Positions 27,960 through 32,578 of a stretch of 64,000 bases of DNA are shown piece after piece (the first letter of the stretch is position 1; each line of letters starts with the position of its first letter). The DNA is from Gammaproteobacteria bacterium RIFOXYD12_FULL_61_37 (GTDB lineage Bacteria > Pseudomonadota > Gammaproteobacteria > Chromatiales > Chromatiaceae). The stretch covers positions 62,001 to 126,000 of the forward strand of contig MGZB01000018.1 in the NCBI GenBank assembly GCA_001801995.1. Direction: 5' to 3'. A program made the translations under genes and the position numbers. The notes under the pieces were generated by a model. It was not told the DNA's origin. It saw only the letters and a program-made list of their open reading frames with translations, and did no database searches.

Positions 27960-29168
27960 TTAAATTTCGCGCAGACCCTCTGATGGTTCGATTCGTGATG
28001 CGCTGAGGCCGCCCAGCATGGCCGCGATCACAGCGGCAGTGATGGTCAGTACCAAGGCGACAATGAAATGTTCAGGGAGCAGCCGGCAAACAGACTGGCC
28101 TACCTCCAACTGGTCCGCAAACATCTTGTTGATGGCAAAGGAGACGCCGAAAAAGATGCCGGAGGCGAGGAGCCAGCCGACCAGGCCGGTTAAGATCGAT
28201 TGCACGACTGGAAAGAGCACGATGTCGCCTGTATGGAACCCCACCAGACGCAGGACACTCAGCTCCCTGCGCTTGCGGTCCACATTGGCGAGCAGGCTGG
28301 CGCCGAGGGAGAGGGCGAATCCCGCCAAACCGATCACCGCGATTACCCAGAAGACCAGGGTCAAGTTGCGGTCCATATCCTGCACCACGGCGATATCATC
28401 TGCCCTGGTGCGTACTTGCAGGCCTTGGGCGGTCAGGTCCTTCTGCAAACCGGCGACATCGTAAATAGTTTTGGCGTAGAGCCGGAAACCGGGGTAGACA
28501 CGCTCGCCACCAGACTCCGTGCCATCCCAGCCCAATGAGGGCACTTTCCGGCCGTCTCGAAAGTCCTCCACCGCCTGCAACAACTCCACGGAGACGAAGG
28601 CGCCCTCGCGGTTAAAAACAGCCGCCGGAGCAACCACGATGATCTTGAGATCGAGGTGCTGACGTTCGGCTTTCCCACGAAACATTCTCGAAATACTGCC
28701 GTCAATCGTGTCGCCGGTTTTCACCATGAGCTTTTCTGCGGCCAATTCTGAGAGGACGATCTGATCGGCCCCAGTTGGGGTGTTGCCGATGCCCTGCAAC
28801 AAGGGATCACCGGGGCCGGAAGGGACCAGTTCCACATTGACGATCCGGCTGCTTCCCTTATTTGAAAGCTGGATGTCGGCAGCGATGCGGCGAGTCCTGG
28901 GAACGACAAAGGCGACATCGGGCCTTTGCCCCATCTTTTCGATCCATTGGAGATTGTAGTGGCCATTGCCAAGGGAGAGGACCTCACGGTTACGAGGATC
29001 TTGCACCAATTCGACGACCATGCCGCCGATCACGCCGAACTTGAGCCCAAAAAGGACCATCATGGGTCCCAGTACGGCGGCCAAGGCGACGATGAAGGAA
29101 CCGGATATGCGCCATTCGCGCAGATAATCCTTGCCGGAGAGTCTCAATGCCTCGCTAAAGTGCGCCAT
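27960..29168 (-). CDS. FtsX/MacB-type ABC transporter permease
   Basis: 402 aa with one membrane helix near 25-50, a periplasmic domain of about 220 residues, and three more helices near 270-292, 320-345 and 370-392. This is the topology of mechanotransmission-type permeases (FtsX, MacB, LolC/E). The periplasmic part contains PRTRRIAADIQLSNKG and a YPGFRLYAKTIYDVAGLQKD stretch. Its start codon shares one base with the stop of the ATPase gene (TGATG), so the pair is translationally coupled. Last gene of the four-gene module. Confidence 0.85.
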   Translation of the reverse strand: MAHFSEALRLSGKDYLREWRISGSFIVALAAVLGPMMVLFGLKFGVIGGMVVELVQDPRNREVLSLGNGHYNLQWIEKMGQRPDVAFVVPRTRRIAADIQLSNKGSSRIVNVELVPSGPGDPLLQGIGNTPTGADQIVLSELAAEKLMVKTGDTIDGSISRMFRGKAERQHLDLKIIVVAPAAVFNREGAFVSVELLQAVEDFRDGRKVPSLGWDGTESGGERVYPGFRLYAKTIYDVAGLQKDLTAQGLQVRTRADDIAVVQDMDRNLTLVFWVIAVIGLAGFALSLGASLLANVDRKRRELSVLRLVGFHTGDIVLFPVVQSILTGLVGWLLASGIFFGVSFAINKMFADQLEVGQSVCRLLPEHFIVALVLTITAAVIAAMLGGLSASRIEPSEGLREI

Positions 29169-29941
29169 CAGCCAGTCACCACCGTTTCTGTCAATTTGCC
29201 GTCGCTCGTTCTTTGGGTACGGTGCGACAGTTGTCTCAGGCCCAGTTTTTTGATGTGCCGCCAGGCATGGCTGGCGACGATCACTGTAATGTTTAGCTCA
29301 TCTACCAGCTCGATGAAAAGATTCATGATCTTTTCGGCGGCGATGGGATCAAGGGAGGCGGTGGGCTCATCGGCGATTACGATGGAGGGTCTGTGAGCCA
29401 GGGCGCGCCCAATGGCGACACGTTGTCGCTCACCTGTTGATAAGGCGCTGGGGTATTTATCGAGGTGCCGGCGAATGCCGAGATGGCCTGCCAATTCCTC
29501 CACCGCCTTGTCGTTGTTGGTCATTTGCAGGAGGTTGCGAGAGAGGGAGATGTTGTCGCGCACGGTCAGATAGGGCACCAACCCGCCGGTTTGCATCACA
29601 TATCCGATGTACTTCTTGCGCAAATCGCCGAGGTGGTTCTGGCGGGACTTGTCCCAATAGGCGGCTATGTCGATGGGCTCATCGCTACGCTCCGGGCGGA
29701 AACGAAAGGCCCCCGATTCGGTCGGCTGGAGAATGAAGGCCAGCATGTCGAGTAATGTACTTTTGCCGCAACCGCTATGGCCGATCAACGCGATCTTTTC
29801 ACCCATGGCGATTTGCAGACTGGGAACCCGCAACCGGAAGCCCGTCCCCTCAGCCTCGCGAGTTCTGACAACGTCACGCAGGTGATAGATCAACACTTTA
29901 TCCGACGGCCGTATCAGCACGGCCTCTGTGGAGTTCTCCAT
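29168..29941 (-). CDS. LolD/MacB-type ABC transporter ATPase
   Basis: About 257 aa. Walker A GHSGCGKST, a Q-loop in GYVMQTGGLVPYLTV, the signature LSTGERQRVAIGRALA and Walker B IVIADEPTASLDP are all intact. The H-loop histidine is in VIVASHAWR. Several upstream ATGs exist. The one at 29941 has GAGG 6 nt before it and is preferred. It starts 8 nt after the vWA gene and overlaps the permease by one base, so it should form a transporter with that permease. The substrate is not indicated. Confidence 0.88.
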   Translation of the reverse strand: MENSTEAVLIRPSDKVLIYHLRDVVRTREAEGTGFRLRVPSLQIAMGEKIALIGHSGCGKSTLLDMLAFILQPTESGAFRFRPERSDEPIDIAAYWDKSRQNHLGDLRKKYIGYVMQTGGLVPYLTVRDNISLSRNLLQMTNNDKAVEELAGHLGIRRHLDKYPSALSTGERQRVAIGRALAHRPSIVIADEPTASLDPIAAEKIMNLFIELVDELNITVIVASHAWRHIKKLGLRQLSHRTQRTSDGKLTETVVTG

Positions 29942-29949
29942 TACCATCC

Positions 29950-31914
29950 TCAAGGCAGCATTTCTAATGGAACGGGGAAGACCGAGTCACCGTCCACCGG
30001 ACCGCCATCAAGGGAGACCCAAAGATCGGTGTGGTCATGCAGGGCGCGATAATAGCTCACTTTTTCTTCGAGGCGTTGAATGAATTCAAGCTGGCGCTTG
30101 GCGGGCCAGTTCCGCCAATCTTCAAGCGAAACGGACATGACCTCGCCGGTATAGGGCAAGCCTTCGATGTATTCCATCATGAAGCCCATATCGGAGAGAT
30201 TTTTGGCCCCGCTCGACCGGGTGCTGCCGGCCATTCGTTCCGGATCGCGGCTGGCGGTGGCAGCTAGGCTCTTGATGTCATCAAGGAAGTTGCGAGGCGA
30301 CAACAACCCCTCCTCGGCAGTCTCCAGGACTTCGCGCAACATCTGGTAAAGCTCGCTGAGCTGGTCTCGGGTCAAAAGGACTCGTACATCCACGGTCTTT
30401 CGCTGGGGCTCCTTGGGGTCCCGGTCAACCATCCAGGCATCGAATACCACGGGGATATTGCCCTTGCGCGGGCGGTCGAGGTACTGCATGCGCAATGCGT
30501 ATCCGAGTTTATTGACCTTCTCCTGAAGCTGGGTCAGTTGCTGATCTTGGGTAGCACCGGCTTCTTGCGTGGACGGTTCTGCCGTGTCCGGGCGGCGCAT
30601 CTGGGCCACGAGCTGATCGGTGAGCAGGTCTACTATCCGGCCGAACTCGCTGACGGCTCCGCCTTTAACGCCATAATAGAGATCGCCGATACCGGGATAG
30701 AGTGAGAGTGCCTTGTATTGCTTTTCGGCGCTTGCGTGGTTATCGGCCCCGGCGGGTGTCAACAGGTGCAGAACAAAGATCGCGGCGTTATTGTCGCGCG
30801 CAAGCTGGCGTAAGGTATCGGCGCCCATTTTTGTCCCGGAGAGCGGATCATTGCCCTCGCGTGCGCCGGCGTCCGTGACAAGAATTATGTAACGCGCCTG
30901 AAAATCGCCCCAACTGATATCGTCGATGGCGCGCTTGATCCCGGCGTAGGAGTCCTCGATGAAATCCTTGTTGGAGACCTTGTCTGTTTCTACCTCACCC
31001 ACCTGCGAAAAGAACTCCTTAGCGGTTGATCCCTTCTGGAGATCGGCAAAAACCATTGTGCGATATTCAAGCCCCTCGACGGAGGTTGTCTCGTCGCGGA
31101 ATGCTACCAGGCCGAATGCCATGTTTCCCTGCGGGTCTTTCTTGGCGATTCGATCGTAAATTTTGCGCACGGCGGCCTTGGTTCGCGATATGTAAGGCGC
31201 CATGGAGAGGGTGGAGTCGATGACGAACACCACGCCAGTAGACAGGGACTTCCCGCTTTCGGGTGTGGCTGGCGGCGTAGCCACAGCCTCGACCGGGGCA
31301 TTGTGGGGAACCGTGGATACGCGCAACAGCCGTCCTTGTTCGGGACCGACGAAGACATCCTTGAATTCGCGGATCGGAACCAGATAAAAGTCATCCTTTA
31401 TGTCGACGTAGGCCGAAGGTTGCAAGGCCACCACGGGGCTGTCGGGAGGCAACTGATCCTTGATGGCGGCCTGGTATAGGCTATCCAGTTCGGCACCGTT
31501 GGTTCCGGCCCCCAGTTTGCTGGCCTGCTCCGCGTCACGAAACAACATGGCGCGGTTGTGTCCTGCCGGGTCCCGGAAGGAGACGGTCAGGCCATGGTTC
31601 CATTCGATCAGATCTTGGTCCGGAATCCAGCCGCCCTTCTTGCCGTGGCTGTCGTAGCCGACCTGGACCCAGTTTTTGCCCTCGATTTCAACGCGGCTAT
31701 AGACGTAAAAGGCCGTGAAGGGTGTCACGGGAGCGGCATCGCCCTTGCCGGGGATGGAAACAAGCTTGGCGCCGGGTTTGGCCAGCGCCCGTTGATAGAG
31801 GGACTTCTTGCCCTCGATCAACAGTGGCTTGCTCTCCCCGGCTTCTTGCGCCAAGGCGCTGCCTGAAACCAGCAGCGCCGTAATGATCAACAGTCCTCGA
31901 ACAACTCTCGTCAT
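29950..31914 (-). CDS. Exported SH3-like and von Willebrand A domain protein
   Basis: 654 aa. The signal peptide MTRVVRGLLIITALLVSGS is followed by an SH3-like beta domain (about 30-105) and a linker. The vWA domain begins near 226 (GVVFVIDSTLSMAPYISR). Its metal-binding residues are D233, T235 and S237, with a later ILVTDAGAREG loop. The C-terminal 200 residues are helical. The vWA part resembles, from memory, the periplasmic region of PpkA-type kinases of type VI secretion, but no kinase domain is present. A GGAG box 8 nt upstream supports the start at 31914. Second gene of the module. Confidence 0.8.
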   Translation of the reverse strand: MTRVVRGLLIITALLVSGSALAQEAGESKPLLIEGKKSLYQRALAKPGAKLVSIPGKGDAAPVTPFTAFYVYSRVEIEGKNWVQVGYDSHGKKGGWIPDQDLIEWNHGLTVSFRDPAGHNRAMLFRDAEQASKLGAGTNGAELDSLYQAAIKDQLPPDSPVVALQPSAYVDIKDDFYLVPIREFKDVFVGPEQGRLLRVSTVPHNAPVEAVATPPATPESGKSLSTGVVFVIDSTLSMAPYISRTKAAVRKIYDRIAKKDPQGNMAFGLVAFRDETTSVEGLEYRTMVFADLQKGSTAKEFFSQVGEVETDKVSNKDFIEDSYAGIKRAIDDISWGDFQARYIILVTDAGAREGNDPLSGTKMGADTLRQLARDNNAAIFVLHLLTPAGADNHASAEKQYKALSLYPGIGDLYYGVKGGAVSEFGRIVDLLTDQLVAQMRRPDTAEPSTQEAGATQDQQLTQLQEKVNKLGYALRMQYLDRPRKGNIPVVFDAWMVDRDPKEPQRKTVDVRVLLTRDQLSELYQMLREVLETAEEGLLSPRNFLDDIKSLAATASRDPERMAGSTRSSGAKNLSDMGFMMEYIEGLPYTGEVMSVSLEDWRNWPAKRQLEFIQRLEEKVSYYRALHDHTDLWVSLDGGPVDGDSVFPVPLEMLP

Positions 31915-31933
31915 GGTGTCTACTCCAAGACCT

Positions 31934-32578
31934 TTACCATCCCACCAACAGACGCCGCGCATTTTCATCCCCTCCGGCCGCTGCGGCCTTCACCCGCAAC
32001 TTAAGATCGGTCAACCTCTTCTCTGCTTGCTCCTGGCCCAGTATCAGGGCCTGGACATACCATTTATGGGCCTGGGTGAAATCGGGGGCATCCAGAAAAC
32101 TCGTGCTGGCGTTACGAAAACTCGGATCAGCCATTTCTGCCAGCAACATGGCGGAAGGACCGTGTCCCTGTTTTACCAGATAGAAATGCAGCAGATAAGC
32201 GTCCGCCTTTTTCCCGGCCCGGCTGTACTCCTCCGCCTGGGCAAAAATTTCGGCGGCTTGCGGAGGTTCAGCCGCCTGCCGGGCTTTAGCGATGAGGGAG
32301 CGCGCTTCCTCTCCGCCCCTTGCATCGGCTTGCCCTTCTTCCTCGGCAAGTGATGTCTCGGTGGCTGGTGCGGCCGCGCCCTGAGCCAAAGGCTTCTCGT
32401 CAACTTTGGAGCCAGGTTTGGCGATACCGGGCTCGTCCCAGTCGACAAAAAAGATATTCCATGCCAAGAGCCCAATGATGCCGACGACCAAGATGATCCT
32501 CAGGTTTTCACCCCGCAGGAATCCTCGCTGTTTTCCGCCAACTTCACCCCAACCGGTGAATCCTCTATGATCGGCCAT
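31934..32578 (-). CDS. Single-pass membrane protein with Sel1-like helices
   Basis: About 214 aa. A short basic N-terminus is followed by one membrane helix (residues about 27-45, RIILVVGIIGLLAWNIFFV) and an acidic Ala/Pro-rich linker. The helical C-terminal half (AHKWYVQALILGQEQAEKRL and similar) recalls Sel1/TPR repeats used for protein contacts. First gene of the vWA/ABC module, 19 bp before the vWA gene. Start alternatives are ATG 32578 and GTG 32590. Its function is unknown. Confidence 0.7.
   Translation of the reverse strand: MADHRGFTGWGEVGGKQRGFLRGENLRIILVVGIIGLLAWNIFFVDWDEPGIAKPGSKVDEKPLAQGAAAPATETSLAEEEGQADARGGEEARSLIAKARQAAEPPQAAEIFAQAEEYSRAGKKADAYLLHFYLVKQGHGPSAMLLAEMADPSFRNASTSFLDAPDFTQAHKWYVQALILGQEQAEKRLTDLKLRVKAAAAGGDENARRLLVGW

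Follow-up and report, generated by a model that had tools for sequence, protein, structure and literature searches.

A four-gene operon encoding kinase-less relatives of TagST and PpkA in a genome without type VI secretion

What can proteins resembling the Tag and PpkA components of type VI secretion systems (T6SS) do in a genome in which type VI secretion is missing? The question is raised by four ORFs, all on the minus strand, located within positions 27960-32578 of the stretch of 64,000 nucleotides analyzed (the window). Read 5' to 3' on the minus strand, they encode a Sel1-like protein, a vWA protein, an ABC ATPase and a permease (Table 1). The Sel1-like and vWA genes are separated by 19 nt, the vWA and ATPase genes by 8 nt, and the ATPase and permease genes overlap by 1 nt. 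Four same-strand genes so spaced had been described in an earlier note on this DNA; their placement is as first described.

Table 1. Features of the four-gene locus (positions in the window)
Feature	Position	Strand	Remarks
Sel1-like single-pass inner-membrane protein	31934..32578	-	start ATG 32578; GTG 32590 also possible
Short cytoplasmic tail, helix and periplasmic Sel1 part of the Sel1-like protein	helix ~32444-32503; Sel1 part ~31937-32314	-	
Exported periplasmic vWA protein, matching a kinase-less PpkA ectodomain	29950..31914	-	full-length match to TagF-linked PpkA periplasmic half
vWA domain	30664..31239	-	MIDAS intact (D251, T253, S255, T365, D366 of P0003)
SH3-like beta-rich stretch	31603..31791	-	prediction only: secondary structure, block pLDDT 44-86
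C-terminal part of the vWA protein, no named domain	29953..30537	-	present across family and in PpkA
TagT-like ABC ATPase	29168..29941	-	Walker A 29756-29782
Alternative starts of the ATPase	ATG 29947; TTG 29953	-	ATG in frame, would leave a 2-nt gap
TagS-like FtsX/LolC-type permease, 4 TM	27960..29168	-	periplasmic domain ~28404-29000

The Sel1-like protein features one hydrophobic segment and the permease four, and a signal sequence is found at the N-terminus of the vWA protein. No Sel1 repeat was found by Pfam in the Sel1-like protein of the window itself. The single pass proposed earlier is borne out, but the Sel1 assignment is drawn from homologs, with Sel1 matches in loci L057, L063 and L092, and a RefSeq entry annotated as 'sel1 repeat family protein' in Gluconobacter. 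The protein is homologous to the C-terminal part of kinase-TM-Sel1 proteins; its Sel1 part is conserved in the clade of window-type loci, its N-terminal cytoplasmic tail is not (top-residue frequency 0.13). The vWA protein scores below the Pfam vWA cut-off (21.1 vs 27 bits). A vWA model is matched by all 14 of the 14 family members and PF00092 by 11, and the predicted domain resembles integrin I-domains (TM ~0.75), the whole-chain model being poor (mean pLDDT 51) and usable for the vWA domain only. The protein has a predicted vWA fold (Rossmann-like) with a MIDAS (DxTxS...T...D); all 51 clade rows have D251, S255, T365 and D366, and 92% have T253. Matches to the family profile run to the last residue in relatives and in PpkA, so including the unnamed C-terminal part; a PDB sequence search with the vWA family gave zero matches. 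Export, vWA domain and intact metal site thus stand as the earlier note had them, but its SH3 domain is weak, no Pfam match being found for it and the predicted beta-rich stretch being what suggests it.

Calls of an ABC ATPase and an FtsX-like permease were confirmed. The ATPase scores above the Pfam ABC_tran cut-off, and features complete Walker A, Walker B, signature, Q-loop and H-loop motifs, the catalytic residues being conserved in 98-100% of 52 clade rows; the ATPase is complete and presumably active. The permease matches Pfam FtsX (5e-10). Its predicted model has the fold of LolC/E and MacB (Foldseek), at moderate overall TM-scores (~0.4-0.5), and its best PDB sequence matches are LolC, LolE and LolF. 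A large periplasmic domain is predicted between TM1 and TM2, followed by three TM, as in type VII mechanotransmission ABC proteins.

The arrangement is more than chance, as relatives with enough flanking sequence keep the vWA-ATPase-permease order. Far from being rarely linked, vWA and ABC genes are universally linked in the samples analyzed. In a scan of contigs, ATPase and permease genes adjoin the vWA gene at 26 loci wherever the contig reached. The vWA protein is encoded by 116 of 195 genomes of the window's order; in a class-wide sample of 321 genomes, exactly the same 23 encode the vWA and permease families, either in full length or in large pieces, and among plasmids the two are found in 125 records each, with the same genus counts. 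The permease family is set apart from other FtsX proteins by scores, members of the module matching at E <=1e-85 (except fragments in genome G367) and the next proteins at ~1e-15. In one gammaproteobacterial lineage (L012-L034, L156, L157) the module lies between leuS-lptE and holA, a core gene cluster. It thus travels there with core envelope genes, a placement counted in favor of the envelope reading given below. In several relatives of the window the module is found beside metH. Neither metH nor the lptE/holA neighbors were retained as functional partners; both neighborhoods seem to reflect where the module sits on the chromosome in a given lineage.

T6SS clusters of the window's order were ruled out as the source of the TagST/PpkA resemblance by zero matches, ten regions containing no vWA or permease of the module's families. 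Across the class, three scanned kinases at TagF loci carry FGE domains and not the vWA family of the module, and the comparison was therefore repeated in Pseudomonadaceae (identified via OprF). Here, TagF is found in 11 loci beside a protein of ~1,010-1,190 residues made up by a kinase, a helix and the whole vWA-family region. The periplasmic half of this PpkA-like protein matches the vWA family in full (E ~1e-190), and ATPase, permease, FGE protein and lipoprotein genes follow downstream. The order is PpkA-TagT-TagS-TagR-TagQ of the H1-type T6SS, names being given from gene content, order and literature. Identity to the PpkA periplasmic half is 34-35% over residues ~39-672 of the window vWA protein, the whole mature length; identities to T6SS-linked TagT and TagS are 42-46% for the ATPase and 42-45%, over ~395 residues, for the permease. 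At the level of sequence, the Tag/PpkA resemblance noticed earlier is almost certainly homology, full-length and with the same gene order. It is strongly supported that the vWA protein corresponds to the PpkA ectodomain minus the kinase, and that the ATPase is specifically related to TagT and the permease to TagS. No characterized transporter family of different function came closer, TagST/PpkA being the closest characterized proteins.

The kinase is absent from the locus, as the earlier note had it; no PpkA kinase domain was found by profiles in the window vWA or Sel1-like proteins, nor in the minimal-clade loci. The claim of a module without type VI secretion was also sustained, as VipB and TagF are missing from the window's own genome (completeness 100). 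No TagQ-like lipoprotein was detected by profile scan of the locus, and no full-length TagR-like match in the genome, in which only generic FGE domains (5e-26 or weaker) and a single vWA-family copy are found. In the same genome (G000:C55:19129-21288), open frames of equal length (745 aa) contain a kinase domain and an FGE domain and are probably a single fusion; they recall the kinase-FGE proteins that adjoin TagF in other families, though this genome lacks a T6SS. VipB is missing in 14 and present in 13 of the 27 genomes encoding a window-type vWA relative (>=50% identity). The module is independent of T6SS, because 14 of the 27 lack VipB.

A few arrangements were distinguished by profile searches of the collected loci. 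The window type consists of Sel1, vWA, ATPase and permease genes and nothing more. The Srf type, found in enterobacterial and alphaproteobacterial plasmids and in Pseudomonadaceae, has the order SrfB-SrfC-Sel1-vWA-ATPase-permease-FGE protein-lipoprotein. In the kinase type (L057, L088, L092) a Ser/Thr kinase domain and a helix precede the Sel1 part of the same protein. The long-permease type features a ~600-residue permease, an FGE protein and a lipoprotein, and the T6SS type TagF, PpkA (kinase-helix-vWA), ATPase, permease, FGE protein and lipoprotein. Neither SrfB nor SrfC was found by profiles at the window region (L075) or at the other minimal-clade loci scanned (L076-L086, L156-L168, L175). 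In a maximum-likelihood tree of 92 vWA regions, window-type loci form one side of a branch supported 100/100, the clade spanning many gammaproteobacterial families. Kinase types group together (100/97), as do T6SS types, except that one contig-truncated locus falls inside. The tree is unrooted, and includes some long branches, the deeper joins being unsure. Judged from the surrounding types, with the root not placed, the window clade likely lost the FGE protein and the lipoprotein.

A T6SS-free Tag module is not new in itself, because tagQRST-ppkA genes next to srfBC were reported in 2013 (PMC3608642); a search of openly licensed papers turned up neither the four-gene form lacking kinase, TagR, TagQ and Srf nor an experiment on any minimal-type locus. 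In Enterobacter 638 pENTE01 and Klebsiella plasmids (L107, L108, L153) a vWA-TagT-TagS-TagR-like set lies directly downstream of srfC, and a TerA-like or VWA-annotated gene precedes srfA; the vWA gene is found in 114 Klebsiella records.

Further variation was observed. In Ca. Thiodictyon syntrophicum pTs485 (338-385 kb; L152, L155), TagS-like, TagR-like and TagQ-like genes occur without vWA or ATPase, adjoining VgrG/PAAR, ~22 kb from a T6SS gene cluster and beside anti-phage genes. A 1066-aa Tubulin_2 protein (L059:4406-7606), possibly another cytoplasmic output, is encoded directly upstream of vWA-ATPase-permease-FGE-lipoprotein genes. Long-permease variants follow a giant protein of ~2,100 aa (L067:10970-17287, L094:1787-8098), possibly a surface partner, which at L067 carries Big, CARDB and carboxypeptidase-regulatory domains. 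In TagF-adjoining T6SS kinases of several families (L113, L117, L112), an FGE domain stands at the C-terminus in place of the vWA half, as though TagR had been fused to the kinase.

In P. aeruginosa, TagQ and PpkA are needed for the H1-T6SS to respond when the outer membrane is damaged mechanically or chemically, a response ascribed to the TagQRST/PpkA pathway (PMC11881912; PMC6657622); both TagQ and TagR are needed (PMC6657622), and how damage is sensed has been called unknown (PMC12133291). According to the earlier note, the vWA protein would serve a mechanotransmission ABC complex as its sensor or adaptor in the periplasm, with a role in envelope sensing or lipoprotein handling, a plausible view. 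We would give an even chance to the window operon being a minimal, kinase-less TagST-PpkA envelope sensor, an ATP-driven device responding to the envelope state, with a probably periplasmic output. We infer complex formation, ligand, direction of signalling and physiological role of the module along the following lines. TagS- and TagT-like proteins would form a mechanotransmission ABC complex in the inner membrane, in which cytoplasmic ATP hydrolysis would move the LolC-like periplasmic domain, no substrate being pumped. This domain would act on a periplasmic receptor whose two components, the vWA protein and the Sel1 protein anchored in the membrane, would correspond to a split PpkA ectodomain. 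Since T6SS loci have the kinase joined to the PpkA ectodomain, and L057, L088 and L092 have it on the Sel1 protein, both vWA and Sel1 proteins would lie on the receptor side; that they form the receptor side of one complex is the simplest reading of these fusions. The vWA metal site may bind a ligand in the envelope, either cell wall or a component of the outer membrane such as a lipoprotein; the availability of this ligand would report envelope integrity, and the ATP cycle would set or reset its binding. The ligand could be captured, released or positioned at damaged sites, all in the periplasm. With no conserved domain left for a cytoplasmic output, a periplasmic one is most likely. The input may differ from that of P. 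aeruginosa, because TagQ and TagR, needed there, are missing in the window.

Alternatively, the output may be cytoplasmic and act in trans, with a Ser/Thr kinase encoded at an unlinked locus, or some other partner, receiving the signal of envelope damage. The kinases borne by relatives on PpkA or on the Sel1 protein are consistent with it, as are seven PF00069 protein-kinase matches elsewhere in the genome, none at the module locus. However, the cytoplasmic tail of the Sel1-like protein is short and unconserved, kinase profiles gave zero matches across minimal-clade loci, and we regard this version as unlikely, if worth keeping in view. Rather improbable is a LolCDE paralog extracting or sorting a particular lipoprotein or outer-membrane component, with the vWA protein as periplasmic acceptor. 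The fold of the permease, its best PDB matches and the location of the module beside lptE in one lineage would fit; yet a LolCDE identity was rejected, as the window permease scores 12.1 bits on the LolC/E model (cut-off 362) and another gene of this genome encodes a canonical LolC/E (515 bits, above cut-off), and the closest relatives, TagST, act in signalling (PMC6657622). An ordinary MacB/BceAB-type exporter of peptides or drugs, as might be suggested by an FtsX/MacB superfamily permease and an ATPase with apparently intact catalytic residues, is very improbable given the constant linkage to vWA, an operon without a MacA- or TolC-like partner, and the specific relationship to TagST. That a T6SS control locus was lost and has left these genes to decay, in line with the lack of kinase, TagR, TagQ and T6SS, is hardly credible, being already contradicted by conservation: the genes form a single well-supported clade in many families, with catalytic and metal-site residues conserved, in genomes both without and with VipB (14 and 13 of 27). 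A defense system was also discarded, since PADLOC gave no match for the vWA and Sel1 proteins, and for the others only generic ATPase or weak TM-region matches.

The kinase-less envelope sensor may be part of a broader picture. The PpkA-ectodomain/TagST core could be a general envelope-state device onto which varied cytoplasmic outputs are plugged (T6SS kinase, SrfBC, Sel1-fused kinase, perhaps a tubulin-like protein), the window clade having no cytoplasmic output and acting outward, in the periplasm; we consider this generalization tentative, with somewhat less than an even chance. A natural version free of both kinase and T6SS isolates the part common to all variants, the vWA receptor and TagST, and makes the role of these proteins testable without the weapon. 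Moreover, it provides a concrete membrane-receptor half for the srfABC islands that are common on Klebsiella plasmids.

Known systems match the module to different extents. LolCDE shares permease fold and ATPase type, but the window permease falls below the LolC/E cut-off in a genome with canonical LolC/E elsewhere. FtsEX, MacB and BceAB share an FtsX-type permease and ATPase-driven periplasmic action; in the operon, the place of a MacA or histidine-kinase partner gene, both missing, is taken by the vWA protein. The srfABC-tag islands of enterobacterial and alphaproteobacterial plasmids and host-associated Deltaproteobacteria (PMC3608642) feature the same Sel1-like-vWA-ATPase-FtsX order and do not require T6SS, but carry SrfB/SrfC, normally TagR-like and usually TagQ-like genes, none found in the window, where the cytoplasmic tail of the Sel1 protein is far shorter. 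The kinase-Sel1 variant (L057, L088, L092) has the Sel1-vWA-ATPase-permease order, and differs because its Sel1 protein carries a cytoplasmic Ser/Thr kinase, TagR- and TagQ-like genes following. TagQRST-PpkA of the Pseudomonas H1-type T6SS has, in contrast to the window, kinase domain, TagR, TagQ, TagF and T6SS. Yet PpkA ectodomain, TagT and TagS match in full length and in the order vWA-T-S, preceded in the window by an extra gene for a TM-Sel1 protein.
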